A DNA stretch of 64,000 nucleotides. It comes from Xanthocytophaga agilis (GTDB lineage: Bacteria; Bacteroidota; Bacteroidia; Cytophagales; 172606-1). The DNA is taken from the NCBI RefSeq assembly GCF_030068605.1, contig NZ_JASJOU010000003.1, forward strand, positions 310,001-374,000. Direction: 5' to 3'. The notes beneath the pieces were generated by a model, which searched no databases, had not been told where the DNA came from, and saw only the letters and a list, made by a program, of their open reading frames with translations. The position numbers were made by a program, and so were the translations under genes. This document shows positions 3,559 through 48,892 of this stretch, piece after piece (the stretch's first letter is position 1; each line of letters opens with the position of its first letter).

Positions 3559-3909
3559 CTATCGTGTCAGGGTAATTTTAGACTGACGACATACACCGCC
3601 TACAGGAGGATTTTGTTTGGCAATACTTACAGTAACAGATTCTATATGAGGATACTTATGATAGATTTTGTCTAATACCCGCCCTGCCATATTCTCCAAT
3701 AAATGAGATTGTATTTCCATCTCCTCTTTTACAATGTTATAAAGCACTTCGTAGTTTACAGTCTGGCTCAGTTTATCTGTTTGTGCAGGTTGGGTCAGAT
3801 CCAGTGTTACAGCCAGGTCTACAATAAAACGATTGCCTACTTTACGTTCTTCTTCATAGAAGCCGTGGTAGGCAAAAAATTCCATTCCTTCTAAAGCAAT
3901 AATGCCCAA
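3559..3909 (-). CDS. folB: dihydroneopterin aldolase
   Basis: This 116-residue protein has the length and fold signature of FolB, which converts 7,8-dihydroneopterin to 6-hydroxymethyl-dihydropterin in folate biosynthesis. Visible marks are the N-terminal GMEFFAYHGFYEEERKVGNRF segment with the pterin-pocket region, the conserved Tyr in NYEVLY, the Glu in LLENMAGRVLD, and the catalytic Lys in IAKQNPPVGG. It acts as a cytosolic homo-octamer in characterised relatives. It is convergent with the PhzF gene and lies 56 bp downstream of the DivIVA-domain gene... read on the minus strand, so the two may share a transcript. Confidence 0.93.
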   Translation of the reverse strand: MGIIALEGMEFFAYHGFYEEERKVGNRFIVDLAVTLDLTQPAQTDKLSQTVNYEVLYNIVKEEMEIQSHLLENMAGRVLDKIYHKYPHIESVTVSIAKQNPPVGGVCRQSKITLTR

Positions 3910-3964
3910 AATGTAGTATAAATTAAAATGTATATTTGATATTCTTCAAGCAATTGCAATTCTT

Positions 3965-26696: not shown

Positions 26697-27075
26697 CAGG
26701 ATGTAAGTGGTATGGATCGGTTTACTATCTCTTCTGTCAGTTTCACCTTGAATAGAGGTTTATCTGCTATTGCCAAAACTTTTCTTCTATGAGCTGAAAC
26801 AGTTTGATAAATAATACTATTAGAAAAACTATATTGTATATTTGTGATACATGAAATAGTATGGCAGAGAGAGACAGATAAACAATAATCTGCAGTATAA
26901 ATGCCTGGTTACTAAAACTTTTGTTTGATAGCAATAAAACTCTAGTAAATCTATAGACAAATGTAATAGTATGATTTTTATTTCCAATCATCTCAAAAGA
27001 ATTTCTTTTGAGATGATTGGAAATAAAAATCACAAGAAAGAACAATTACAGACAGACGCTTATCAATTCATTCTT
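26697..27075. promoter_or_regulatory. intergenic region with 22-bp shared motif and long palindrome
   Basis: A 22-bp element at 26941-26962 (plus-strand spelling TCTAGTAAATCTATAGACAA plus AT) matches the one at 48475-48496 in 21 of 22 positions. It lies 245 bp before the sulfatase start at 26696. The 26972-27032 segment is a perfect palindrome. No Cys-rich short ORF was found between the motif and the gene here. Confidence 0.55.
26972..27032 (-). terminator. 61-nt perfect palindrome, probable terminator of the upstream sulfatase gene
   Basis: Bases 26972-27001 and 27003-27032 are exact reverse complements (30-bp arms, one central base). It starts 44 bp after the stop of the sulfatase gene at 27076. 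On the minus strand a T-rich run within the arm gives terminator character. Arms this long are unusual for an intrinsic terminator. Confidence 0.6.
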
Positions 27076-28921: not shown

Positions 28922-30565
28922 TTATAAATTATATCGATCTTCCACTCCATCAAACTCGTTCCGATAATAACCAGTGCTGGGCCATAATGGCTTCACTAGT
29001 CCTTTCTCCCACTCATTCAATGTCCTTTGCAGGTCTTTTACTTTCTCAGGATTAGAAGCAGCCAGATTGTGTTTTTCTTCTTTGTCCTTGATCAGATTAT
29101 ACAAGGCAGTAATATTATCTTTTTCATTGATTACCAGCTTCCATTCACCTTTACGAACGGCTTTATTTGAGCCAGCACGCCAGAATAAAGTCTCATGTGG
29201 AGTTGCAGAATCTGGTTTAGCAAGAAAAGGAATCAAATTGACCCCATCATATTTTCGTCCGGATGGCAATGCAGAACCTGAAACAGCAGAAGCTGTAGCA
29301 AAAATGTCCAGTGAACTAACAAGTCTGTTATCTGTAATTCCTTCCGGAATATGTCCTTTCCATTTAACAACGTAAGGCACATTAATTCCACCTTCATACA
29401 GTGACAATTTGCCTCCTTTCAAAGGAGCATTGCTGGTAGCATCAGTATAGGTAGCCCCACCATTGTCACTCAAAAACACAATTAGGGTATTGTCTTCCAG
29501 CCCTGCATCTCTGATCTTTTGATGTATCTTTCCAATAGCCCTATCCAAGTACTCAATCATAGCATAGTACACAGCTTTATTCCGATCGACTCCTTGTGCT
29601 TCGTATTTTTCTATATCCTTTTTGTAGGCTTGAAAAGGAGTATGTGGAGCATTGAATGGGACATACAGAAAAAATGGTTTCTCACGATGTTGATCAATAA
29701 ACTGTACAGCTGCTAGCTGGTTAGTCAAATAGTCTTTGGTGTGTATAATTTCATTTCCTCTTCGGACAAGAGAATTGCCTTGTCCACCTAAATCCCAGAT
29801 ATGTGAATCCATCACACCTTTGTGATGAACATTCACCAAGCCAGGACTTGTCGTATCTGTATACCAGGCAAACGCGTCATAAAAACCATAATGGTAATCA
29901 AAACCTCGCTTTAGTGGCAGAAAATCTTCATTGCTACCCAGATGCCATTTTCCAATGATACCTGTCGCATATCCGTTTTTCCTAAGCAAGTCGGCAATTG
30001 TAATCTCACCCAGCGGTAATCCCTGCCGGGCTACGTTTTCAGGTGTAGGGATACCTGTATTATTGGCAAACTCTAATTGTTGCTTATCAATAAATAACCC
30101 TGCAAGCAGTTGCTGCATCCGATTTTTCGGGTAGCGATTCACAGGTTGTAATTCATGTCCAAAGCGTTGCTGATAACGACCTGTAAGCAATCCGGCACGT
30201 GAAGGACTACAGATAGCAGCTGTAACATATCCTTCTGTAAAGGTTACACCTTGAGCAGCCAGACTATCAATAGCCGATGTCTTCACAATTTTATTTCCAT
30301 ATAAGGAAATATCCGTCTTGCCGAGATCATCGGCTACCAATACCACAATATTAGGTTGACGTGCCACAGGTCTGGAAGCAATAGGAGCAGTCAGAAAGGT
30401 ATTCTTTTCCTGAATAGCTTTTTTATCAACAGGTAGATCATAGTCATGAGAAGCCAATGGATATAACAAATAGCCCAGTAGTATTGCTAGTCCTATACCT
30501 ATGATTCCAATTCGTCGAATGGTTTTTGATCGTTTTGAGCGAGGTTGTATTACAGGTGAGGTCAT
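28922..30565 (-). CDS. membrane-anchored sulfatase
   Basis: This 547-residue protein begins with a basic cytosolic tail and one transmembrane helix (about residues 18-38, IIGIGLAILLGYLLYPLA), so it should be anchored in the membrane rather than secreted. The metal motif VADDLGKTD lies at 77-85 and the formylglycine motif C119-S-P-S-R precedes AGLLTGRYQQRFG. It is most similar in the window to the sulfatase at 34755-36356 (both have ITEG/RQNYVTAAIC-type and QQRFG runs). The stop of the upstream M28-like gene is 1 bp from its start, so translational coupling is likely. Confidence 0.93.
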   Translation of the reverse strand: MTSPVIQPRSKRSKTIRRIGIIGIGLAILLGYLLYPLASHDYDLPVDKKAIQEKNTFLTAPIASRPVARQPNIVVLVADDLGKTDISLYGNKIVKTSAIDSLAAQGVTFTEGYVTAAICSPSRAGLLTGRYQQRFGHELQPVNRYPKNRMQQLLAGLFIDKQQLEFANNTGIPTPENVARQGLPLGEITIADLLRKNGYATGIIGKWHLGSNEDFLPLKRGFDYHYGFYDAFAWYTDTTSPGLVNVHHKGVMDSHIWDLGGQGNSLVRRGNEIIHTKDYLTNQLAAVQFIDQHREKPFFLYVPFNAPHTPFQAYKKDIEKYEAQGVDRNKAVYYAMIEYLDRAIGKIHQKIRDAGLEDNTLIVFLSDNGGATYTDATSNAPLKGGKLSLYEGGINVPYVVKWKGHIPEGITDNRLVSSLDIFATASAVSGSALPSGRKYDGVNLIPFLAKPDSATPHETLFWRAGSNKAVRKGEWKLVINEKDNITALYNLIKDKEEKHNLAASNPEKVKDLQRTLNEWEKGLVKPLWPSTGYYRNEFDGVEDRYNL

Positions 30566-30566
30566 G

Positions 30567-31853
30567 TTATTTGGAAAGCTGAAGTTCTAATTCGAGTGTT
30601 TTTTGAATGGAATGTGCAATCTCTTCCAGAAGCTGTGGTGAAGTTGTGGTTTCATCATCGGAAGGCATATGATGAAAGGTGTGCCCATAGGCAATACCAA
30701 AGAAACGTTTGTATCCATGTGCCGAAACCACACTTAATTCTCCTAAGGCCTGATCTTTGACTTTCCATCTTTTTCCTGGTTGCCCTTCAAATCCGGCCAG
30801 AATACTGGCCTCCATATTTTCACTATACATGATATTTCTCAATGAATCTACCGTATTTAGTTTGGTTCCTCCCGAGGCAGAGGATTTCCACTCACGGGTA
30901 GCGATACCAGCACCTAAGTGTAGCCATAGGTACACATCTTCTGGCTTGGGAGCGTGTTGGCCAATAAATACATGAGCTCCTGTATTATCCAGTTCATGCC
31001 CTGAATTAGCTGTAAAAAGAAAGGTATAAGGCAAATTCTGTTTACTAATCCATTCTGCCAATGCATTAAAAATAGCTACTCCTGGCCCTCGTTCACCACC
31101 ACAGGTAAACCATCCGCTAATCGGTGTAGAGATAATCACATATTTTTTGCCCGAACCAATCTTACCTATTATACTTCGCGCCTGTACAGCTTTGATTGTA
31201 CCTTTTATTGACAAGGTAACAGGTGTTTTCTGAGCAACTGCCTTTAGTATATGTACAGAATCTTTAGGAGCTATTATCACCACAGGCACTTTCCAGGGTT
31301 GCAGATCCCTGGTGGTATTATAAGCTACGATCTCTCCTACTTTATTGGTGGAGATAGCAATGATTGCCTGTGCACCTGCATTGACTACAGAGTCCAGAAA
31401 TTGAATAATGGATTTTGTGATTTGTCCACCCGGAGGCAACCGGACCAATGCAACTTTATGCCGGATGTCTGTCTTTGCATTGCCACTCAAATCGACAACC
31501 TCGCTTTTCACCTTTACCGCCGGATCTTTCACATACCAGAGAGGAAAAGCCTCTACAGAATGACCTTTGATATCCACTGTTACCTTCTCCAGAAAAAATT
31601 GCTTTACAGGAAAATAGGTAAAAGAAGTCTGAAAACCATTTACCTCAAGCTTCTTTTGTATCCAGGTAGAGGTTTCAATATCACCTTGTGCAGCCGTACG
31701 ATGAACACCAAACGAAACATATTTCTTTACATCTGCATATAGTTTCTCTCCCTGAAAAGGATCTGTAGATTGAGCATTCACAACTTGTGTATATGCTCCA
31801 ATCATACAAATCCAGAGGTACAATAAAAGTTGTCTGAGTGTAGTATTTCTCAT
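30567..31853 (-). CDS. M28-like secreted peptidase family protein, metal site degenerate
   Basis: This is a 428-residue protein with a signal peptide (about 1-27, VVNAQ), an inserted PA-like domain (about 90-200, with ADVLP-type VVDLSGNAKTDIRHKVALVRLPPGG), and a M28 zinc-peptidase fold. Where M28 enzymes carry HxD followed by a Gly-rich metal loop, this protein has ISTPISGWFTCGGERGPGVA. The usual double-Glu turn appears as ANSGHELDNTGA. The late HTFHHMPSDD region keeps His and Asp. The first metal-binding His is missing, so catalysis by the classic mechanism is doubtful. The stop of the next gene upstream is 8 bp away. Role inside a sulfatase cluster is unknown. Confidence 0.7.
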   Translation of the reverse strand: MRNTTLRQLLLYLWICMIGAYTQVVNAQSTDPFQGEKLYADVKKYVSFGVHRTAAQGDIETSTWIQKKLEVNGFQTSFTYFPVKQFFLEKVTVDIKGHSVEAFPLWYVKDPAVKVKSEVVDLSGNAKTDIRHKVALVRLPPGGQITKSIIQFLDSVVNAGAQAIIAISTNKVGEIVAYNTTRDLQPWKVPVVIIAPKDSVHILKAVAQKTPVTLSIKGTIKAVQARSIIGKIGSGKKYVIISTPISGWFTCGGERGPGVAIFNALAEWISKQNLPYTFLFTANSGHELDNTGAHVFIGQHAPKPEDVYLWLHLGAGIATREWKSSASGGTKLNTVDSLRNIMYSENMEASILAGFEGQPGKRWKVKDQALGELSVVSAHGYKRFFGIAYGHTFHHMPSDDETTTSPQLLEEIAHSIQKTLELELQLSK

Positions 31854-31860
31854 AGATAAT

Positions 31861-33303
31861 TCATCGAGTATTGGCAGAAATCAGCTTTACAGTTTTCCAT
31901 CCTTTATCCAGCGTCTGTTTAAGCTGCTGCTGAATGGTGCTATAAGCAGATTTTCCAGCCAGATTGGTAAATTCATTGGGATCTTTCTTCAAATCATATA
32001 ACTCCACTTTATCTGTACCCCACTCTGTATATCGATACTGTTCTGTACGTACACTCTTGCCCAGTACCCCTTCATGCACAACCTCTGAAAATACAGCCTG
32101 TTTCCACTTTTTTTCAGGAGCATTCAGCAAGGGCACAAAACTTTTCCCTTCCAGATCCGAAGGAGCTTTCAAACCAGCCAGTTCGGCAATGGTCGGATAA
32201 ACATCTACATATTCAATAAATCCTTTAGCTTCCTTTCCTTTCACGGCCTGTGGTGTATACAAAAGTAAGTTTCCATGTGTGGCTTCTTCAAACTGGGTTT
32301 GTTTATGCCATAGTCCTCTGTGTTCTCCATTATGATAGCCATGATCTCCCAGAAAAATCACAATAGTATTGTCCCATAGTTTGTATTCATCCAGCTTTTG
32401 CAGCAGTTTACCTACCTGTGCGTCCATAAAGGAGATACTGGCATAGTAGCCTTTAATTTTATCTATAGTTTCCTGATCCGTCAGTGAGTCAATTTTCGTC
32501 AGCGCAATAGGTGGAATATCATCCAGATCATTGGCCGGAGAAACCGGTACTTTTATTGAAGCATTTTTGTACAGATCAAAATACTTCTTTGGCACATCAT
32601 ATGGCGCATGAGGTCGGCGAAAGCCTGTTGCAATAAAAAACGGTGTATTGGATTTTACCCGTTGTTCCAGAATAGCCAGAGCTTTGGTAGCCACTAATCC
32701 ATCTCCGGTTTGCTCATCTGCTACATTCAGAATAGCCCATTCCTGATTAGCACTACGGGCAGGCGATGTCTTTGGATCATGTGCCAGACGGATTACTTCG
32801 GGATCTTTTACATCAACCAGTTCATTGTACTGAAATGACCAACTGGCAGTGTCTATATTGAAGTCACCTTGTGGTACCCCATCTTTTACAAATCGTTGAG
32901 AATGGAAAATCTTACCAATCTGTGCAGTATAGTAGCCGTTCTGTTTAAATAATTGCGGTAGAAAAACAGTAGACTGTAAATGCGTACGGGGAGGAGTATT
33001 ATTATCCCGTATTCCAGTGGTAGCAGGTCTCTTTCCACTCAACAATGACGTCCGCGACGGGCTACACAAAGGATACTGACAGTACGCATTTTTAAAGTTA
33101 ACAGACCGGGCAGCCAGTTTATCCAGATTAGGGGTCTGTACAATAGGATGTCCATTGTATCCTGACTTGGTATTATAATCATCTGCGTAAATCAGCAATA
33201 CATTAAGCTTTCCGGATTTCTTTCCCTGTTGTGCAGATACATTACAGGAGATCAGCAGAGCAACTAATACTAGTACTTTGCTAACAAAATATAACATCTT
33301 CAT
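31861..33303 (-). CDS. sulfatase (iduronate-2-sulfatase-like)
   Basis: This 480-residue sulfatase has the IDS-like pattern: YADDYNTKSGYNG at the metal site (residues 39-51), formylglycine motif C80-S-P-S-R followed by TSLLSGKRPATTG, then GKIFHSQ and FFIATGFRRPHAPY, and VIFLGDHGYHNGEH. The N-terminus carries a signal sequence and LLISC (Cys20), which could be a lipobox or a type I signal peptide (NVSAQQ). Substrate is unknown, but relatives remove 2-O-sulfate from uronates. It is adjacent to the paralog at 33312-34727 (8-bp gap). Confidence 0.92.
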   Translation of the reverse strand: MKMLYFVSKVLVLVALLISCNVSAQQGKKSGKLNVLLIYADDYNTKSGYNGHPIVQTPNLDKLAARSVNFKNAYCQYPLCSPSRTSLLSGKRPATTGIRDNNTPPRTHLQSTVFLPQLFKQNGYYTAQIGKIFHSQRFVKDGVPQGDFNIDTASWSFQYNELVDVKDPEVIRLAHDPKTSPARSANQEWAILNVADEQTGDGLVATKALAILEQRVKSNTPFFIATGFRRPHAPYDVPKKYFDLYKNASIKVPVSPANDLDDIPPIALTKIDSLTDQETIDKIKGYYASISFMDAQVGKLLQKLDEYKLWDNTIVIFLGDHGYHNGEHRGLWHKQTQFEEATHGNLLLYTPQAVKGKEAKGFIEYVDVYPTIAELAGLKAPSDLEGKSFVPLLNAPEKKWKQAVFSEVVHEGVLGKSVRTEQYRYTEWGTDKVELYDLKKDPNEFTNLAGKSAYSTIQQQLKQTLDKGWKTVKLISANTR

Positions 33304-33311
33304 AACTCTTA

Positions 33312-34727
33312 TCAGGATTTGTTTTTGAGAGCGTAACCTTTGTGAAGTAACTCAGCCAGTTCTTTTACTGTAGCTGCATGGGAACTTTGTTTTGCCAGAT
33401 TATTAAATTCATCCGGGTCAGTCTGATGGTCGTATAATTCGATTCCTTGTCTGCCTTCATCCCATTCCGTATATCTATATCGTTCCGTACGCACACTGCG
33501 CCCCATTATGTCTCCACGTCTTACCTGTGTATAGGCAGGTTTGTCCCAGGTAGCGTTGGGATTTTTCAACAAAGGCACCAAACTTTTACCCTGTAAGTCT
33601 GAGGGAGGAGTCAATTCACAGAGTTGTGCCAGCGTAGGATACAGATCTACTAATTCTACTGTGCGGAGAGAGGCTTTTCCCTTTACACCACCAGGAACAG
33701 AGATAATCAAAGGCACTCGTGCCGAATTTTCAAACAAACTCTGTTTCATCCACTGTCCATGCTGCCCCAAATTGTATCCATGATCACTCCAGAGAACTAC
33801 AATTGTATTATCTCTGAGTTTCAACCGATCCAATGCATCCAATACTTTACCTACTTGTGCATCCATAAAGGAAATAACGGCATAATAAGCCCGTTGAGCT
33901 TCACGTCTGTCTGCTTCATTCAGGCCCCAGTGTGAAGGTTTTGTAAATAGTGCTGGCTCAGGTATGTCCTCTAAATCATTTTCCTTTTCTTTAGCCAAGG
34001 TAACTTTCTCAGGAGAGTACAGATCAAAATATTTCTTAGGTGCTACATAAGGTGTATGAGGTCTGAAGAATCCTACTGCCAGAAAGAAAGGTTCGTTTTT
34101 CTTTTCTTCCAGCAGTTTAATCGCTTCTGCAGCAATCAGGCCATCTGTCTGTTCCTCATCTGAACCTTCATCTGCCCGCCACGACAAAGCACTTCCCAGG
34201 TTTCGGTCAGGTGTGAGGTTTTTGATTGTCGATTCTGCTACTTTATCCCGACCTTTCGGATTGATGCGGTGATGCCAGGATAAGGAGTCATCCAATCCAT
34301 TGGTACCTATTTGACCAGGAACGCCATAATGATATATCTTGCCTACCCGTGCACTGTAATAATGGTTATTCATGAAAAGCTGTGGCAGTGTTACTACATC
34401 CGGAAGGTTTTTACGAAAGTGCGTTTGCAGTTCATAAATTCCTGTCACGTCTGGTCTCTGCCCTGTCAGTAGAGAAGATCGGCTGGGACTACATAGGGGA
34501 AACTGTGTATAGGCACGATCAAATCGGACTCCTTGTTTTGCCAGTCGGTCGATGTTAGGTGATTTTACTTCTTTACTTCCATAGCAGCCCAGCTCATTAT
34601 TCAGATCATCAACTGCTATAAATAAAACATTGTATTTTGGTTTAGACTGAGCATATGTCAGTGATAGGTTCCCAGCAAAGACAACGAGTGCCAGGAAACA
34701 AAACTTTCGAAAAAAGGATGTTTTCAT
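33312..34727 (-). CDS. sulfatase (iduronate-2-sulfatase-like)
   Basis: This is a 471-residue sulfatase with a signal peptide ending near SLTYAQ (residue 27). The metal motif is AVDDLNNELGCYGS (38-51), and the formylglycine motif C79-S-P-S-R precedes SSLLTGQRPDVTG. GKIYHYG, FFLAVGFFRPHTPY and VVLWSDHGYNLGQHG are active-site-like segments shared with the paralog downstream. Their tandem arrangement suggests duplication. It is 27 bp downstream of the lipoprotein sulfatase gene, and probably in the same operon. Confidence 0.93.
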   Translation of the reverse strand: MKTSFFRKFCFLALVVFAGNLSLTYAQSKPKYNVLFIAVDDLNNELGCYGSKEVKSPNIDRLAKQGVRFDRAYTQFPLCSPSRSSLLTGQRPDVTGIYELQTHFRKNLPDVVTLPQLFMNNHYYSARVGKIYHYGVPGQIGTNGLDDSLSWHHRINPKGRDKVAESTIKNLTPDRNLGSALSWRADEGSDEEQTDGLIAAEAIKLLEEKKNEPFFLAVGFFRPHTPYVAPKKYFDLYSPEKVTLAKEKENDLEDIPEPALFTKPSHWGLNEADRREAQRAYYAVISFMDAQVGKVLDALDRLKLRDNTIVVLWSDHGYNLGQHGQWMKQSLFENSARVPLIISVPGGVKGKASLRTVELVDLYPTLAQLCELTPPSDLQGKSLVPLLKNPNATWDKPAYTQVRRGDIMGRSVRTERYRYTEWDEGRQGIELYDHQTDPDEFNNLAKQSSHAATVKELAELLHKGYALKNKS

Positions 34728-34754
34728 GTCAGGAATGTAAGGATATACAATAGG

Positions 34755-36356
34755 TTAAGGTTGAAAGGAAACTAACTTGCCATCTACCAGTATTTCAGTA
34801 ACCTTCGGACTTTTCCACCGAGGAGGGGAAAGTTCTTTTTCCCATTGGGCAAAATCATGACGCAATTCATTGACCACAGCAGGAAGCTGTGTAGCCAGAT
34901 CGGTTTGTTCACAAGGATCTTTTTTCAGATCATATAGAAAAACAGTTTTGTCTCTGTCATTTTCCAATAGCTTATAGTCCCCCTTACGAATGGTCTTTAC
35001 AAATCCATTGCGCCAGAATAAGACAGGATGCGGACTTTCAGGATTATCTCCTGAAATAAATGGCCATAAGTCTACTCCATCGTATTTCCGGTTAGCAGGC
35101 AACTTTGTCTTTGTTGCTGCAACAAAGGTAGGTAGCAGATCCAGGGTAGAAACCGGATGTTCGTATACACTACCCGGTTCGATCTTGCCAGGCCATTTAA
35201 TAAAAAGAGGAGTACGAATACCGCCTTCATAATGTGTGAGCTTTCCTCCTTTGAAGGGCAGATTCAGATTTTCATATGTTCCATCATACACTGTTTTTCC
35301 TTCACCCTTTTCTCCAGGTTTGAGACTGTGATACGTAGAACCATTGTCACCGGAGAATACTACAATGGTATTTTCTTCCAGACCAAGTTCTTTGAGTTTT
35401 TGTGTAATACGTCCTACAGCCTCATCCAGTCCAAGTACCATTGCCAGCAACACCTTTTGTTGCGGATCACGAATCTTATTTAACTGTTTATAATCTTTTG
35501 TTACAGCCTGTAGTGGTGTATGAATAGCCCCAAAAGGCACATACAGAAAAAAGGGTTTGTCTTTGTTCTTTTCCAGAAAAGCTTCAGCTTCACGAGCAAT
35601 GGCAAAGGTCTGGTATTCTTTTTCATCAACCAGTTTGCCATTACGGAATATTCCTGTAGCAATAGGGTCTCTTTGCCACTGATATTTTCCTGTTGAAGAA
35701 GGATAATGATGATATAGTCCGTTTTCATCCTTAAATGTCACAAAGTTCACATCTGATGAGTCAGTATAGTACAAAGAAGATCCTCCATACCAACCCCAGC
35801 TATAATCAAATCCTCTTTGATGCGGACGATAGCCATCATAAAATCCGGCATGCCATTTTCCAATAATACCTGTAGTATAGCCGTTCTGCTTCAGGATCTG
35901 GGCTATATTTAATTCACTTTCCGGGATACCCTGTGTCTTTACATCCAGCGAATCAATACCCAACTTTTTCAGATAGTCCAGTCCACCATCTCCTGCATAA
36001 GCAGAGTTATAAGGATAATGCAGGTGATTTTCGGAGCCAAAACGTTGTTGATACCGTCCTGTAAGCAATCCTGCACGGGAAGCACAACAGATTGGAGCCG
36101 TTACATAGTTTTGTCTGAAGCGAACGCCTCCTTTGGCAATGGCATCAATATGCGGAGTGCTTACCCATTTATTACCATTGACAGAAGGGACATTATTTCC
36201 AAAGTCATCTGCAAAAAGAAAGACAATGTTGGGTTGCTTTTCATCAGAATAGTTACTCCGTTTACCACTTGTACAAGCAGAGAGAACAAGACTGATGATC
36301 AGAAACAAGTATACCTCTTTCACAGAAAGAGGATAATGTATAAGAAAAGGTTTCAT
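34755..36356 (-). CDS. sulfatase, lipoprotein, variant CXAXR maturation motif
   Basis: This 533-residue sulfatase has a lipoprotein signal (VLSAC, Cys28). The metal motif is FADDFGNNVPS (48-58). The formylglycine motif is C90-C-A-S-R followed by AGLLTGRYQQRFG. Here the usual Pro is Ala (C-x-A-x-R), a variant known in some sulfatases, and the position after the catalytic Cys is a second Cys. GKWHAGF and VFSGDNGSTYHS are further active-site segments. Its closest relative in the window is the sulfatase at 28922-30565. It should sit on the outer or inner membrane facing the periplasm. Confidence 0.92.
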   Translation of the reverse strand: MKPFLIHYPLSVKEVYLFLIISLVLSACTSGKRSNYSDEKQPNIVFLFADDFGNNVPSVNGNKWVSTPHIDAIAKGGVRFRQNYVTAPICCASRAGLLTGRYQQRFGSENHLHYPYNSAYAGDGGLDYLKKLGIDSLDVKTQGIPESELNIAQILKQNGYTTGIIGKWHAGFYDGYRPHQRGFDYSWGWYGGSSLYYTDSSDVNFVTFKDENGLYHHYPSSTGKYQWQRDPIATGIFRNGKLVDEKEYQTFAIAREAEAFLEKNKDKPFFLYVPFGAIHTPLQAVTKDYKQLNKIRDPQQKVLLAMVLGLDEAVGRITQKLKELGLEENTIVVFSGDNGSTYHSLKPGEKGEGKTVYDGTYENLNLPFKGGKLTHYEGGIRTPLFIKWPGKIEPGSVYEHPVSTLDLLPTFVAATKTKLPANRKYDGVDLWPFISGDNPESPHPVLFWRNGFVKTIRKGDYKLLENDRDKTVFLYDLKKDPCEQTDLATQLPAVVNELRHDFAQWEKELSPPRWKSPKVTEILVDGKLVSFQP

Positions 36357-36403
36357 CGTGGTTTGTTTTGTATACTATGGATTGTATATAAGACAGCACT
36401 GGC

Positions 36404-38041
36404 TTATGGCGTCTTCTTCACCAGCGTATCCCATTCTACTACTCCTGCACGCCTGGCCCATGCATTGTATAAGTTTATCAGCTCCTGTAGTTTAGCGGGA
36501 TTAGAAGATGCAAGATTGTGTAATTCTGTTCTGTCTTCCTTTATATTGTATAGCTCCCACTTATTCTCAGGGTAAAACGAAACAATCTTCCAGTCCCCCT
36601 GACGCACGGCCCGATTGCCTTGATGCTCCCAGAATATGATATCATTTCCTTTCCACTCCTTGCCATCCAGGGCTAATTTGAAAGATATTCCTTCCTGACT
36701 GATCAGCGTGTTACCTTTATAAGTCTGTGGATACTTTACTCCAGCCAGATCAAAGATGGTAGGCTGAATATCTATCACATGAGCTGGTGCAGGTACCAAT
36801 CCTCCCGCCTGAATTTTTCCTGGAGCATAGGCAATAAAAGGTGTACTGATACCACCTTCATGCTCCCAGTGTTTGAAAGAACGGAAAGGTGTATTGCTTA
36901 CATTCGCCCAGTTATATTCATAGGAAACATATGATTGCGGATTATCTGCTGTCAGAGGTTTTACTAGCGAAGCCGCCTCCGGAGTCTGTGACTTTGCTGA
37001 AAAAGCATATTCATGACTGGCACCATTGTCAGAAAGAAAGAATATATAGGTATTCTTGTCTACTCCAAGTTCAGTTAACTTAGTCAGAATACGACCAATA
37101 TTATAGTCTAGCCGATCTATCATAGCGGCATATACAGCCATTTTCAGATCCCATGCTTCTTTTTCTGTCTGGCGGAGTTGGTCCCATCCGGGAATCAGGG
37201 TGTCTCTGGGAGACAATTTCCATTCCGGACGAATAACTCCCATATTCACTAAACGTTTATAACGTTCTGTGCGGACTACATCCCATCCCTGCATATATTT
37301 GCCTTTATACTTTTCAATATCTTCCTTGCGTGCCTGTATAGGAAAGTGAGGCGCATTGTAAGCTGTGAAAAGAAAAAAAGGTTTGTTGGTATTTTTTGTT
37401 TCGTCCAAAAATCCCAAAGCCTGATCTGTAAATTCATCTGTCAGGTAATAGGAGTCTGGTTTCTTATCTGTAGTATATGATTCCAGCTTCTGACCATTCT
37501 TTACAAAAAAGTTTAGTTCAGCCAGCTTGTAGGGATGAGGATAAAACTGATGGCTGGTTCCTCCTATCAGAGCAAAATACTTATCATATCCTCGGGCCCC
37601 CGGCCATTGTTCTGGAGTATTTCCTATGTGCCATTTTCCAGACATGAGAGTTGTATATCCTTGCGTCTTTAATCCCTCGGCAATGGTGATGACATTTTTA
37701 TTCAAATATCCCTGATAAGCAGGTGTACCCAGGTTACCATTCATGCTACCTACTCCTGCCTGGTGCGGATACACTCCGGATTGCAATGCAGCACGTGTTG
37801 GACAGCAACGGGATGTATTGTAAAACTGTGTAAAGCGTACTCCATTGTTGGCCAGCTTATCCAGGTTTGGTGTAGGAATTTCCGAACCATAGGCTCCAAT
37901 ATCTGAAAACCCCATATCGTCAACCAGAATCAACACAATATTGGGTTTTGCCGGCTTAGGCTTACTTACTCCTGTTCCATAGGCGGATACATACAATACA
38001 AGGAGTATACTGAATGTAATATAGGTATAGAGATGTTTCAT
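36404..38041 (-). CDS. sulfatase (arylsulfatase type)
   Basis: This 545-residue secreted sulfatase has a signal peptide ending near VSAYG (residues 18-22). The metal motif is LVDDMGFSD (39-47) and the formylglycine motif is C79-C-P-T-R followed by AALQSGVYPHQAGVG, so a second Cys follows the catalytic one. GKWHIGN and IFFLSDNGASHEY are active-site segments. It is a paralog of the sulfatase at 18547-20187. The next upstream gene on the strand (NTF2-like) ends 20 bp before its start. Confidence 0.93.
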   Translation of the reverse strand: MKHLYTYITFSILLVLYVSAYGTGVSKPKPAKPNIVLILVDDMGFSDIGAYGSEIPTPNLDKLANNGVRFTQFYNTSRCCPTRAALQSGVYPHQAGVGSMNGNLGTPAYQGYLNKNVITIAEGLKTQGYTTLMSGKWHIGNTPEQWPGARGYDKYFALIGGTSHQFYPHPYKLAELNFFVKNGQKLESYTTDKKPDSYYLTDEFTDQALGFLDETKNTNKPFFLFTAYNAPHFPIQARKEDIEKYKGKYMQGWDVVRTERYKRLVNMGVIRPEWKLSPRDTLIPGWDQLRQTEKEAWDLKMAVYAAMIDRLDYNIGRILTKLTELGVDKNTYIFFLSDNGASHEYAFSAKSQTPEAASLVKPLTADNPQSYVSYEYNWANVSNTPFRSFKHWEHEGGISTPFIAYAPGKIQAGGLVPAPAHVIDIQPTIFDLAGVKYPQTYKGNTLISQEGISFKLALDGKEWKGNDIIFWEHQGNRAVRQGDWKIVSFYPENKWELYNIKEDRTELHNLASSNPAKLQELINLYNAWARRAGVVEWDTLVKKTP

Positions 38042-38696: not shown

Positions 38697-39791
38697 TTAT
38701 GCGGTTGTTAACTTAGCTGTTGCTAATTCTGGCTTTAACTGAGTTTCATCTACCAGGGCAGGATCATCTCCTACTTCAGGTCCATTAGCAGAAAGTTCAC
38801 TTCCTTCTTTTTTGGATTTAAAAATCGGCCATAGGAACTGTGCATACCACTCTTCTTCCTTATAGAACTTAATCCCATAGGAAGTAGGATACTGACGGGT
38901 GATAATGCCTGTCTTAAAAATCACATCCCACAAGAAAAACATATTACCAAAATTCCCTTTGTAGTATCCAATTCCGTCATCTGCTGTATCGGCATGGTGT
39001 GCATGATGAGTTGCTGGTGTAGAGATCAGTCTTTCCAATACCCAGGCTATAGGATGCAGGATTCTGTATTTGTAGAAAGGCTTATCCCACGGGATACTGG
39101 AATGAGCGGACAAGGTAATCAATGATTTAAGGACAGTTACAAACAATGCCTGATAGCCTAGTCCCAGATATACCAGTGTTGCAGTCAAATAAATCTGTGA
39201 AAAAAACACAGTATAAATAAAATTCTGACGGCTATTCATTGCCATTCCCATATAAGGAGCTGAATGGTGTGTACGATGAAAACGCCATAAAAACGGAAGC
39301 TGATGATGCAGTCTGTGATACCAGTACTGAGTCAGGTCATCGGCTACAGCTATCACAAAAAAACCACCCCAAAACGGAACCCATGAGAATGCGTTAGCAG
39401 CACCTGGCAACACTAATGGAAGCAGTTTCAGACTAAAAAATCCGGTTATGGAAGGAAGCAAAAGTTTTGGTACCAGAAAACACACAATGTCAATTTTCCG
39501 CTCGGTTGGAGTCCATTTATTATCATATAAACCTGCAACAAACTCCAACACACCTAATCCCAAAGCAATAGCTATCAATCCCCATGATTTCAGGTTGCGA
39601 AAAACAGGTTCCAGAAACTTTAGAAAAGCAGGAGCACTTACCTGTGCATAATCTTTTACCGGATTTTCCCAGGGTCTTTCGCCTGTAAACGCATAATAAA
39701 AAATCAGTGCAAAGACAGGCAATGCATATAAGCAGAGGCTAATCAGTGCATCACGTGTAATCTTTTTAGCTAAGGAGTGATCTAGAGACAT
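38697..39791 (-). CDS. sterol desaturase/fatty acid hydroxylase family membrane protein
   Basis: This is a 364-residue integral membrane protein of the fatty-acid-hydroxylase superfamily. Hydrophobic segments lie near 10-30, 65-88, 95-140 and 200-225. The di-iron histidine motifs are HRLHH, HRTHH and THHAHH, spaced as in the family. The iron centre would hydroxylate or desaturate a lipid or sterol using oxygen. It lies in the same strand as the sulfatases and ends just before a strong terminator (38647-38685), so it is the last gene of its transcript. Any lipid substrate is unknown. Confidence 0.88.
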   Translation of the reverse strand: MSLDHSLAKKITRDALISLCLYALPVFALIFYYAFTGERPWENPVKDYAQVSAPAFLKFLEPVFRNLKSWGLIAIALGLGVLEFVAGLYDNKWTPTERKIDIVCFLVPKLLLPSITGFFSLKLLPLVLPGAANAFSWVPFWGGFFVIAVADDLTQYWYHRLHHQLPFLWRFHRTHHSAPYMGMAMNSRQNFIYTVFFSQIYLTATLVYLGLGYQALFVTVLKSLITLSAHSSIPWDKPFYKYRILHPIAWVLERLISTPATHHAHHADTADDGIGYYKGNFGNMFFLWDVIFKTGIITRQYPTSYGIKFYKEEEWYAQFLWPIFKSKKEGSELSANGPEVGDDPALVDETQLKPELATAKLTTA

Positions 39792-42480: not shown

Positions 42481-44049
42481 CTATTTCCACAGTTCATTTT
42501 GTTCCAGCAACGCATTGTTATCAATTTCTGATTGCGGAATTGGATAAAGCCGATGTTTATCTGTTGCATTTGTCTTTCCTACTTTGTGTAAGTTGGATAC
42601 AAAAGTGCTGTTTCCAGCTCCATCTTTCTGACGAATCAGATCGAACCAGCGCTGATATTCAAACACTACTTCCAATCGGCGATCCAGATACAAGGAATCA
42701 CGAAACTGATCCTTAGTTAAGCCTTCTGTCAGATTAGCAAGACCAGCCCTGTTCCGTACTCTGTTCAGAGATTTGTAAGCTTTTGCAGTAGGACCATTAG
42801 CTTCATTCTCTGCTTCCGCATGGATCAGCAAAAGCTCTGCATAACGAATGATAGCAACATTAGCTGCAGACTCACTGGTTACAGATGTTGAATTAGGATC
42901 CCACATCTTATGATAAAATGGGGTTGAATCATTAGGAACCGCTGTATTTGCAAGAGGTAATGCATATTTTCTTCCATTGGAAGGGCTTGTAAAGTAGGTT
43001 ACAAACGTTGCATTTCTGCGTTTATCATTGGGTTTATACAACTTATAAATACTGAAATACTTATCATCGCCATTGGTATAATAACGAACCATATGGGCAT
43101 AGTTGCCCGACAGTCCTGGCACCCCGCTCAGAATAGTACGTGGATTTTCGTTGTTCCCTTGTCCCTGAGCATTAGACTTAAACTGAGCAGAAAAGATATG
43201 TTCTTTTCCATTTTTAGTAGCAGGCAAAAAGACATCTGCATAGTTTGCAAACAGATCATAGCCATAATTTCCTGTTCCTCCATCTGTAGCAGATAACACC
43301 TCTTCAGCTTTGGCTACAGCATCTGCATAATGTGCTGTTATATTAAGTGGTAGTGATGCTTTAGTGAGATATACTTTAGCCAGCAACGCTTTGGCAGCTC
43401 CTTGTGTGGCTCTTCCTACATCCGGAGCTGTATAAGACGCTGGTAGCACTTCAGCGGCTTCTTGCAAATCCCTTTCAATCTGTGCATATACTTCTGTAGA
43501 TGGTGACTTGGCAATAGCATAATCAGCAGCATTTACATACTTTTGGTATTCAGTAATCAATGGTACATCTCCATACAACCGAACCAGATTGAAGTAATAC
43601 AAAGCTCTCAAAAATTTAGCTTCACCCAACAAACGGCTCTTCAGCGCAGCATCAAAATCGATTGAAGGAATTTTATCCAGTGCAACGTTTGCTTTCTTTA
43701 TAGCAGCATAATGTTGTTGCCAGATTTCGTAAATCCTCAGGTTAGTAGATGAATGAGCCAATACCGCCAGCGAACGAACATCCGGATTGGTAGCACCCGG
43801 ACCTGGATCTTCATCATCTCCTGCCATATTCATTCCAGTGTTAAATAATGTATTATAGGGTGTCTGAATGCTACTTCCACCTGAGTTAAGAAGAAAGTAT
43901 ACAGCATTAATCCCATTAATCGCATCTGCCTGGGTTTTGTAATATTGATCCTCAGAAATCAAGGATTCAGGATCTTCTGACAAAAAATCCTTGCAGGCTC
44001 CTGTAATCAATAATAATAGTGTGAGAGTGGTATATATGATAAGTCTCAT
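42481..44049 (-). CDS. SusD/RagB family outer-membrane lipoprotein
   Basis: This 522-residue lipoprotein has lipobox TGAC (Cys19). It has the SusD pattern: DPESLISEDQYYKTQADAINGINAVYFLLN near the N-terminus, the TPR-like scaffold (LGEAKFLRALYYFNLVRLYGDVPLI), and a C-terminal RYAELLLIHAEAENEANG...RRLEVVFEYQRWFDLIRQK signature. It forms the surface lid on the SusC partner and captures ligand. Apart from the lipobox Cys there is no Cys, and internal Met is low (about four). It follows the SusC gene by 46 bp. Ligand is unknown but the neighbours point to a sulfate ester. Confidence 0.95.
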   Translation of the reverse strand: MRLIIYTTLTLLLLITGACKDFLSEDPESLISEDQYYKTQADAINGINAVYFLLNSGGSSIQTPYNTLFNTGMNMAGDDEDPGPGATNPDVRSLAVLAHSSTNLRIYEIWQQHYAAIKKANVALDKIPSIDFDAALKSRLLGEAKFLRALYYFNLVRLYGDVPLITEYQKYVNAADYAIAKSPSTEVYAQIERDLQEAAEVLPASYTAPDVGRATQGAAKALLAKVYLTKASLPLNITAHYADAVAKAEEVLSATDGGTGNYGYDLFANYADVFLPATKNGKEHIFSAQFKSNAQGQGNNENPRTILSGVPGLSGNYAHMVRYYTNGDDKYFSIYKLYKPNDKRRNATFVTYFTSPSNGRKYALPLANTAVPNDSTPFYHKMWDPNSTSVTSESAANVAIIRYAELLLIHAEAENEANGPTAKAYKSLNRVRNRAGLANLTEGLTKDQFRDSLYLDRRLEVVFEYQRWFDLIRQKDGAGNSTFVSNLHKVGKTNATDKHRLYPIPQSEIDNNALLEQNELWK

Positions 44050-47172: not shown

Positions 47173-48105
47173 TTAGTTGAGACCTAGTTGTTGAAGGTGA
47201 TCTTTTTCCTGCTGAAAACGTTTGGCATCTGGTTTCAGAAACCCAAACTCATGTAGGTTATCCTGTCCATGCTCAAACACCCATTTCAGGAATTTTACAG
47301 CTTCAGGATTTGTATTGTTTTTCAGGACAGACAGGTGGATATACTCAATCGGAACATTTTTTAATTCAGCTGCTTCCAGTTTTTGTAACACAATATCCAG
47401 ATTGTCATAGAATTTCTCATCAGCACTCACACGTTTGTTACCATCGATATCTACTGGCAATACAGTTATGCCATCAATTGGTTTGCGGGTCTGAAGATTG
47501 AAAAGTAAACCTGGCGTACTATAAGAAACTCCTGTTGAGTCTTTTAATAAAGCCTTTACCAGATGCTCATCTGCACCAGCGATAGCTTTACCTTTGATGT
47601 TTGCTTGTTCAAATCCAAAGTAGCGGGCAAACGTAACAGGAGCTCCTGCTTTTTGCAAACGAGTATAGATCGTATAAGGTATCTCTACCTTTTTCTCATT
47701 CTTTTTGTCTGCATAAATATCATTAAAATAAAACTGTTTGATTAATTCAGTGGTTAGGCCCTTGTCTGAATAGTTTTTTGCAAAAGCAGAACTTGCATTG
47801 GCAAATGGTAGTAATGCATATCGCGCAATATAAACATATTCCCGACTCTCTTTGACAGATGCTTCGGGTTCATAGGCTTCAATTAACACATCATATTGGG
47901 AAGGGTCTGTAGTTGTTCTCGCCTCTATTATAATTTGTGAACTGGGATTAGTCTGCTGATATTGCTTGATCCACTTTTCAACTAATGGATAAGCAAAACG
48001 AACTCCTGTGATCACAACTTTATTTTTAGCGGCGTCCTGCGCGATGACGATTTGTCCTAAAAAAAACAGGACAAAAATGATAGAGAAAACTTTAGAGGAT
48101 TTCAT
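47173..48105 (-). CDS. PstS-like periplasmic substrate-binding protein
   Basis: This is a 310-residue protein with a signal peptide ending near VIAQ (residue 23) and a type-2 periplasmic-binding fold resembling PstS-like/sulfate-binding proteins: VVITGVRFAYPLVEKWIKQYQQTNP, ARTTTDPSQYDVLIEAYEP, then TELIKQFYFNDIYADKK and a C-terminal LKWVFEHGQDNLHEFGFL helix. No ABC permease or ATPase is nearby, so it may deliver oxyanion or sulfated ligand to an unlinked transporter, or act with SusCD. It contains no Cys, and the initiator is its only Met. It is the first gene after the Cys-rich leader ORF and a large hairpin (48124-48197). Confidence 0.85.
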   Translation of the reverse strand: MKSSKVFSIIFVLFFLGQIVIAQDAAKNKVVITGVRFAYPLVEKWIKQYQQTNPSSQIIIEARTTTDPSQYDVLIEAYEPEASVKESREYVYIARYALLPFANASSAFAKNYSDKGLTTELIKQFYFNDIYADKKNEKKVEIPYTIYTRLQKAGAPVTFARYFGFEQANIKGKAIAGADEHLVKALLKDSTGVSYSTPGLLFNLQTRKPIDGITVLPVDIDGNKRVSADEKFYDNLDIVLQKLEAAELKNVPIEYIHLSVLKNNTNPEAVKFLKWVFEHGQDNLHEFGFLKPDAKRFQQEKDHLQQLGLN

Positions 48106-48123
48106 AATTTTGTATCAGTTGGC

Positions 48124-48197
48124 GGCTATGGAAAGCACCTATCTTCTAAAGAATTCCACCAAAACTCGATTTAGAAGACAAAGTGCTTCCTCTAGCC
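48124..48197 (-). promoter_or_regulatory. large imperfect leader hairpin before the binding-protein gene
   Basis: Left arm 48124-48150 (from GGCTATGG to TCTTCTAAA) pairs imperfectly with right arm 48170-48197 (TTTAGAAG to CTAGCC) across a 19-nt loop. On the minus strand no T-run follows, so it is not a classic intrinsic terminator. It could regulate by hiding the ribosome entry region or by Rho access. Confidence 0.5.
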
Positions 48198-48294
48198 ATA
48201 TAAGCGGTATATGGAACAGGTAATTTTTCTGACACAGGGCCAGACGAAGAAGGCTAAACGATATGTCAGGAAAAGAATAGTACTCCTGATTAGA

Positions 48295-48384
48295 TTACAA
48301 ACAGGTACAACAGCAACAAGGTATCTGGAAAAATACTGTCAAACTCCCGGATAAGAATTGCGCATGACGTGAATCCTTTTTCAT
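48295..48384 (-). CDS. putative cysteine-sensing leader peptide
   Basis: A 29-codon frame from ATG at 48384 to TAA at 48295 encodes a peptide beginning MKKDSRHAQFL and ending PCCCCTCL. Five of its last seven codons are Cys (TGT TGC TGT TGT, ACC, TGT). A second in-frame ATG (48390) would add MV. The ORF stands about 190 bp upstream of the binding-protein gene and about 90 bp downstream of the 22-bp motif at 48475-48496. A run of Cys codons in a short upstream ORF is the classic mark of attenuation by charged tRNA-Cys level. The downstream locus is devoted to sulfate esters and its head proteins are Cys/Met-poor, which supports this reading. Translation has not been shown. Confidence 0.6.
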   Translation of the reverse strand: MKKDSRHAQFLSGSLTVFFQIPCCCCTCL

Positions 48385-48474
48385 AACCATTATATTAAAA
48401 TTTTATCATCCAATTAATTATTGGCTGGTTTGGGAACCTACTCTGATAAAATCAATTTGGTGGGAATTGATTTG

Positions 48475-48496
48475 TCTAGTAATTCTATAGACAAAT
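48475..48496 (-). promoter_or_regulatory. 22-bp motif shared with sulfatase promoter region
   Basis: Plus-strand spelling TCTAGTAATTCTATAGACAA plus AT. The copy at 26941-26962 differs in one base. Here it is part of a dyad, ATTTGTCTA (48470-48478) with TAGACAAAT (48488-48496). It probably binds a regulator or is part of a promoter that controls both sulfatase operons. Confidence 0.55.
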
Positions 48497-48892
48497 ATTA
48501 CATATGAATTTTATATTTCCAAATTATAAATCCATTTTTGTTAAAAAACTTCTATAATCATATCTATTCTCCTTTTTGTTAAATAAAAACACATTGTTGA
48601 TTGTCTTTTACCTTTGGCACCCAATAAATAACACTATTTAGAAGTCAAAAAAACTAGTCTAAAAATAGAGTTGAACTTACCTACCTTTCATCAACTTTCT
48701 TTTCATTAAAGAAGAAAATTCACTTTTTTTTGTATTCAATAAGCCGAAATAACTCTCTGGAACATCTCAAAGGCATATTTTAGGAATAAGTGGTAAACTG
48801 ATAGTGTAAACATTGGTTTAATTATAAAAATACAGTTTCACTTATATATATTTGAAAACAATACTTTATCTTTTACTTAAAACCACTTTATT

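Follow-up and report, generated by a model that had tools for sequence, protein, structure and literature searches.

The classical trp and his attenuators contain a leader open reading frame (ORF) with tandem codons for the end-product amino acid. SusCD/sulfatase loci of Bacteroidota are usually regarded as being induced by their glycan. Polycysteine attenuators were reportedly described in mycobacteria by Canestrari et al. in 2020. According to the passages cited here, polycysteine leaderless short ORFs of mycobacteria act as cysteine-responsive attenuators (PMC9031893, PMC13236596), in a system termed translation attenuation (PMC13236596), and candidate poly-Cys leaders without terminators stand before cys operons in Actinobacteria (PMC1262725). 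In Flavobacterium psychrophilum, operons for the synthesis of amino acids were proposed to be under leader-peptide attenuation (PMC9723704), leader peptides of Bacteroidota receive general mentions only in the passages concerned (PMC9723704, PMC7366714), and no paper on Cys leaders in Bacteroidota was found in searches of an open-access library.

Here, we describe a short ORF ending in a run of Cys codons upstream of a sulfatase operon in a stretch of 64,000 nucleotides from Xanthocytophaga agilis (contig NZ_JASJOU010000003.1, positions 310,001 to 374,000; hereafter, the window). By far the best reading of the sequence data, to which we would give a probability of about 85%, is that this ORF is a cysteine-responsive attenuator which gauges charged tRNA-Cys through its series of Cys codons. 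Like the actinobacterial candidates, the window leader has its Cys codons near the stop and no obvious terminator, whereas those candidates, as the cited passage presents them, belong to Actinobacteria and to cys and cbs operons (PMC1262725). With the mycobacterial attenuators, whose attenuation is described as cysteine-dependent, it shares the short upstream ORF and the contiguous Cys codons; the phylum differs, and the targets here include outer-membrane SusCD/sulfatase operons besides cysS and cysH (PMC9031893, PMC13236596, in the passages concerned). The F. psychrophilum candidates come from the same phylum and are likewise short peptides before operons, but neither cysteine nor sulfatases are named in the passage on them (PMC9723704).

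The leader ORF and the operon behind it

The leader ORF (MVMKKDSRHAQFLSGSLTVFFQIPCCCCTCL, minus strand, 48295..48390) has 31 codons when read from the ATG at 48390, and a second in-frame ATG at 48384 yields the 29-codon form of the original prediction, which was present as claimed, with its PCCCCTCL end and five Cys in the last seven codons. The C-terminus reads IPCCCCTCL, and the Cys tract itself (TGT TGC TGT TGT ACC TGT, minus strand, 48301..48318) is followed by TTG TAA. The window contains 572 ATG-ORFs with a length of 15-60 aa, and of these only the leader ORF has at least four Cys among its final seven residues; a set of 40 first-order Markov copies yielded 30,979 ORFs, of which 5 reached four Cys or more and none reached five. 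A chance Cys run in a spurious ORF might be suspected from the 107 places in the genome that carry TGYTGYTGYTGY tracts, many of which are not leaders, but this rarity and the conservation at orthologous loci described below leave that explanation a negligible probability. The other CCCCTC match is antisense to a gene. No Rfam covariance model reached its gathering score in the window, so no known riboswitch was found there, and eight binding-protein loci gave no Rfam match up to E 5.

The stop codon of the leader lies 189 nt before a gene for a PstS-like substrate-binding protein (47173..48105), which is followed, all on the minus strand, by a SusC/RagA outer-membrane transporter (TIGR04056; 44096..47140), SusD (42481..44049), a sulfatase (PF00884; 39985..42288), a fatty-acid-hydroxylase family gene (38697..39791), a gene with a sub-threshold NTF2-like match, and five further PF00884 sulfatases (36404-38041, 34755-36356, 33312-34727, 31861-33303 and 28922-30565), among which (28922..38041) lies one gene without a Pfam match. 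The PstS-like protein, SusC, SusD and string of sulfatases that had been proposed downstream were thus confirmed, with six sulfatases in all. The relationship to PstS was obtained by comparing a 12-member profile with solved structures, the best match being a phosphate-binding protein (E 1.1e-6); PF12849 (PBP_like_2) was matched weakly by 10 of the 12 members, the window protein itself has no Pfam match, and its predicted structure (mean pLDDT 48.3) was set aside. From the conserved motif upstream of the leader, we infer that leader ORF and operon are carried on one transcript.

Conservation of the Cys tail and the sulfur regulon

Conservation of the Cys tract at orthologous loci in related genomes had been set beforehand as a check, and the tract proved to be conserved. 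Among the named relatives found in the searches, the closest is Xanthocytophaga flavus YF14B1 (Cytophagales), with 98% across the binding protein. Its leader differs from that of the window in two Cys codons out of five, both synonymously, and five other codons have changed their residue. Within 291 genomes of the order, a Cys-tailed short ORF stands upstream of the binding-protein gene in nine of the ten closest loci, the window included, at 74-192 nt before the matching stretch; the exception is L044. A convincing leader was seen in one (L055) of 18 more distant binding-protein loci scanned, L026 being left out; L049, a locus of the same scan, has little upstream sequence. Across the phylum, the binding-protein profile matched in 11 of 395 genomes (the window's own included), and 11 remote loci were without a leader.

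A profile of six leaders, run on 48 genomes of the genus g53, which belongs to another family (f10), gave a match at E <= 0.5 in 39 of them. Of the 30 g53 loci read among the matches listed, 28 have a leader whose tail contains CC or a longer Cys run, always ahead of the binding-protein gene; the two exceptions are a false match (L109) and a fusion without the Cys tract (L101 in genome G344), in which the first half of the leader is joined in frame to the binding protein and the tract is lost. The g53 leaders comprise 27 distinct peptides, in which Cys makes up 97 of 196 of the last seven residues against 9 of 621 before them, and the Cys codons of the tail are mixed (67 TGT, 30 TGC). Most of these leaders have MNxYSS and VV in common upstream of the Cys tract; outside g53, the length of the leader and the sequence ahead of the Cys tail vary freely. 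When 61 genomes of the family of g53 were searched with the leader profile, only leaders of G247 and G073 fell below E 0.002, and the weaker matches (12 loci inspected) gave nothing convincing. The second leader that the profile search found in G073 is real (MNAYSERVTIANRMVVSTISFFPGTCCCC) and stands before a sulfatase-SusC-SusD-sulfatase run without a binding protein. At another locus (L161, genome G345), the GGUGG of the leader, discussed below, lies where the main gene begins, and no Cys tract is left; L101 and L161 are possible natural fusions.

Cys-rich tails can bind metals, and the peptide might accordingly be a functional small protein, thiol- or metal-binding, with any regulation incidental. 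We consider this very unlikely, since length and sequence before the tail are so free outside g53, the window peptide has no NCBIfam match, and such ORFs lie directly upstream of sulfur genes in the loci read.

A motif upstream of the leader (TTTGTCTATAGAATTACTAG, minus strand, 48476..48495), which lies inside an inverted repeat (48470-48496), could be a promoter element, an operator or both. Just upstream of the leader, TTTGTCTAT followed by eight variable bases and TAG is common to the window and the 28 g53 loci. With one mismatch allowed, ACTTTGTCTATNNNNNTARTAG was matched 222 times in 44 g53 genomes against 16 times for the reversed pattern; in 30 other genomes, the same pattern gave 10 matches against 8, with no excess outside g53, so that the regulon in the window's own genome rests on few sites. 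A looser pattern showed no enrichment over its control as a whole (43 against 66 matches in the window's genome), and the argument there is based on the genes behind the better sites, which include sulfatases, SusC, the binding protein, fatty-acid-hydroxylase relatives and cysteine-desulfurase-like genes, the one of the last kind at L166 falling below its NCBIfam cut-offs. A SAM-I riboswitch above its gathering score directly follows the motif in L166 and L180. When Rfam was applied to 20 other loci, SAM-I was found in L055, L166 and L180, with L181 just below the cut-off, and its placement behind the motif (L166, L180) or ahead of the leader (L055) ties such loci to sulfur. Judged from sequence, the upstream motif marks a sulfur regulon in g53.

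Within the window, a second copy of the motif (minus strand, 26942..26961) lies about 245 nt upstream of a sulfatase-like gene (start 26696), and no Cys leader was found with it; elsewhere in the same genome, a second leader, with the end CNRCCC, precedes a SusC gene (L182). Sixty further motif sites of g53 were hand-picked from the matches listed, mostly avoiding the binding-protein leaders already seen. An ORF with at least three Cys in its last eight residues was present at 17 of these 60 sites (one of them, L254, with eight residues and a GTG start, is doubtful), against 3 of 60 on the reverse complement and a mean of 1.0 with a maximum of 3 in shuffled sequences. In the g53 regulon, leaders with a Cys tail also stand ahead of SusC, sulfatase and fatty-acid-hydroxylase-like genes.

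The relatives of the fatty-acid-hydroxylase family gene form a separate unit of the g53 regulon, often with their own Cys leader, and at three loci (L160, L162, L163) a small membrane-protein ORF lies in front of the fatty-acid-hydroxylase-like gene. The context in the operon and in the g53 regulon hints that this gene may have a sulfur-linked role. Other members of the regulon depart from the common arrangement. In seven 5' UTRs of sulfatase-like genes (L179, L191, L231, L237, L262, L276, L285), the motif is present without a convincing Cys leader, and a shared core around TTTTCGGTGGTTG appears to lie in a long hairpin; this core was seen as bases in L179 and L191, neither of which matched Rfam, and as FSVVVNS in one frame in the other five. 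A rhodanese-thioredoxin gene (by Pfam on L264) belongs to the regulon at L252, L264 and L274, with CCACC and GGTGG and no Cys tail.

Poly-Cys leaders found by codon pattern

Leaders of this type were also sought by codon pattern alone, with filters that required a short ATG-ORF, not covered by a frame of at least 110 codons, with a gene following. Five Cys codons before a stop were matched in 155 of 395 genomes of the class, and 72 rows were read (30 loci as listed and 39 hand-picked, the latter chosen mainly for TAA stops or T-rich codons, besides L389, a stretch of 10 bases that was of no use). Seven of the 72 passed, a figure that is not an unbiased rate because the set was partly hand-picked; these precede cysS (two), cysH (two), a metX-like gene, a TonB receptor gene and a RimK-like gene. 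The cysteine--tRNA ligase and the phosphoadenylylsulfate reductase exceed their NCBIfam cut-offs and the MetX-like protein lies below its own. Six Cys codons before a stop occurred at 44 places in 395 genomes of the phylum, all of which were read. Here too seven passed, before cysS (two), cysH, cobA/cysG, PhyH-type genes (two, with Pfam on one) and a TonB receptor gene, the cobA/cysG product being a uroporphyrinogen-III methyltransferase above its NCBIfam cut-off. Both counts include the same four places, namely the two before cysS, one before cysH and the one before the TonB receptor gene. The other places lie for the most part within longer open frames. The pattern of four Cys codons before a stop proved too noisy for counting across the order (291 genomes); 30 loci were listed, 27 of them gave rows and 15 were inspected closely, which revealed two apparent leaders, one before an O-acetylhomoserine sulfhydrylase gene above its NCBIfam cut-off (L316) and the other before a TonB receptor gene in the window's own family (L293).

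TonB receptors, RimK-like and PhyH-type proteins are targets without an evident part in cysteine supply or use. Leaders before similar PhyH-type genes at L400 and L404 fail the filter only through an overlapping long frame, and related leaders with six or more Cys stand about 52 nt before a PhyH-type dioxygenase gene at L400, L401, L402 and L404, in four genomes of the genus g145. This arrangement suggests that the PhyH-type dioxygenase may have a role in sulfur metabolism.

Because the Cys tail is kept while the rest of the peptide changes, and because leaders of the same type precede genes of cysteine supply and use, the ORF is best regarded as a leader whose Cys codons are meaningful, as the original prediction had held; the tail recurs at orthologous loci, within the regulon, and before cysteine and sulfur genes. 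What characterizes amino-acid leader attenuators was found here as a Cys-rich short ORF in an upstream position, codon conservation at the level of the residue, and downstream genes of cysteine supply or use, the last not behind every leader. In the cysteine-responsive attenuator that we favour, a scarcity of charged Cys-tRNA would stall the ribosome in the Cys tract, and the mRNA would then take a form that permits downstream expression; when cysteine is plentiful, the ribosome would complete the leader, the mRNA would refold, and expression would fall.

RNA elements and the output step

Upstream of the leader ORF lies a hairpin (H1; minus strand, 48449..48473) with a 9-bp stem and the loop CCCACCA. 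In the 28 g53 loci, a hairpin occurs at the same place near the motif, with CCACC invariant in the loop and a covarying stem, eight of whose nine pairs are changed on both sides; 41 such cells were counted against 11.8 in shuffled sequences, and 3 to 11 when the partner was slid. The covarying hairpin ahead of the ORF in these 28 relatives argues against a leaderless ORF here. GGUGG is invariant inside the leader ORF in 28 of 28 g53 loci and could pair with the CCACC loop, and since all five CCACC-GGUGG pairs are invariant, covariation is uninformative on their pairing. In the window, a long hairpin between the leader and the first gene (minus strand, 48124..48197), identical in X. flavus, has an apical GGTGG (48156-48160). 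In the loci searched, the CCACC/GGUGG element had no Rfam match. H1 with its CCACC loop, together with GGUGG, is probably part of the switch.

CCACC was found near the motif at 41 of the 60 regulon sites (L229-L288), against 21 of 1080 background windows of 40 nt. When a leader was defined as an ATG-ORF that carries CC among its final eight residues, one followed 24 of the 41 sites that have CCACC at +22 to +62 and 2 of the 19 sites without it, one of which (L248) reads through an apparent SAM aptamer; the same rule gave 0 of 60 on the reverse complement, and the commonest other residue doublet among the 41 sites was Arg, with 6. By this rule, no leader is present at 17 of the 41 CCACC sites and at 17 of the 19 others. 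At 7 of the former 17, no more than 146 nt separate the motif from the start of the main gene, so that there is little space for a leader.

These elements bear on two further explanations. The UGUUGU-type tract might be kept as an RNA motif, for pairing or as a protein site, and not as Cys codons, in keeping with the nucleotide-level conservation of GGUGG elsewhere in the g53 leader (28 of 28) and with a possible pairing (p 0.065) between the window tract and the long hairpin, on its 3' arm. The tract, however, lies in the reading frame where the ORF ends, its third positions vary between T and C (67 and 30), the Cys-codon changes in X. flavus are both synonymous while five other codons change their residue, and Cys codons are what seemingly unrelated leaders in other families have in common ahead of cysS and cysH, so that we regard conservation as an RNA motif as quite improbable. 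Direct pairing between the Cys tract and the stretch to the main start was rejected, being overall no better than in shuffles (mean p 0.39; p<=0.1 in 7 of 34). In the second explanation, the leader would be an arrest peptide whose nascent chain, inside the exit tunnel, responds to a sulfur metabolite (cysteine, sulfide or SAM), and it would not sense tRNA charging. Residue conservation of the sort that most g53 leaders show in MNxYSS and VV is typical of arrest peptides, but these residues overlap a predicted hairpin and the invariant GGUGG, so that the peptide conservation may partly be RNA-level (variation over the predicted hairpin was too low for a test), and leaders elsewhere have little in common beyond the Cys run. 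An arrest peptide thus appears quite unlikely.

The two competing pairings that had been proposed downstream of the leader both exist in the window, but they are poorly conserved, since X. flavus loses the first (TCAGGAG to TCAAAAG) and shortens the second (CCTGACA to CCTGAGCA), and they were rejected as the switch. The second is contained in an 11-nt inverted repeat of 91% complementarity (48264-48274 with 48224-48234; minus strand, 48224..48274), which is partly conserved. A comparison of the window with X. flavus revealed no conserved alternative structure. An intrinsic terminator was discarded as the output in the window because no terminator-like site occurs in 48000-48900, in agreement with the absence noted originally; weak terminator-like hairpins (-2.2 to -8.2 kcal/mol), none of them convincing, were seen at 11 of the 28 g53 loci, and the other 17 lack even these.

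Terminators do accompany leaders of other loci. At L055 (family f20, 3712-3916), a SAM-I riboswitch is followed by the leader MEEFSVPSAIPFNRYKQLAYCCCCC and directly by the terminator AAGGCAGTCCTGCCTT-TTT; when the leader stretch was folded, GGCAG of the 5' arm paired instead with CTGCC of the leader, which is the antiterminator pairing that a classical attenuator needs. The binding-protein frame at this locus is short (223 aa). The succession of SAM-I, a CCCCC leader and a terminator at L055 may represent two-signal control of one gene. Before cobA/cysG (L405), a terminator of 14 pairs directly follows the leader. Outputs with and without a terminator therefore seem, from the loci compared, to exist side by side. 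The trp and his attenuators resemble the present system in their tandem end-product codons and, at L055 and L405, in a terminator directly after the leader; in contrast, the window has no trp-type arrangement of a terminator hairpin with a U-run and a competing antiterminator, the 28 g53 loci have no convincing one, and H1/GGUGG comes as an additional element. Since the window operon and its relatives have no good terminator, the output is more likely to be translational or Rho-dependent than intrinsic termination, and for the sulfatase operons we favour one of these two modes of control.

A wider picture, which we put forward tentatively and at distinctly less than even odds, is that cysteine attenuation is widespread in Bacteroidota and gates cysteine synthesis, cysS, and SusCD/sulfatase operons, with an output in Cytophagales that would be a new RNA switch, in which a 5' CCACC loop and a GGUGG, the latter located within the leader or else in a hairpin ahead of the first gene, pair under the control of the ribosome in the leader. 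Relative to the known poly-Cys attenuators, what is new here is the phylum, the SusCD/sulfatase scavenging targets, and the added RNA element. If the attenuator reading is true, poly-Cys attenuation would reach beyond Actinobacteria into a second phylum and take in cysS. Some SusCD/sulfatase loci would then switch on at cysteine shortage, which would mean that their sulfatases serve sulfur supply, and the Cys-codon leader would be a sequence signature for locating such loci.
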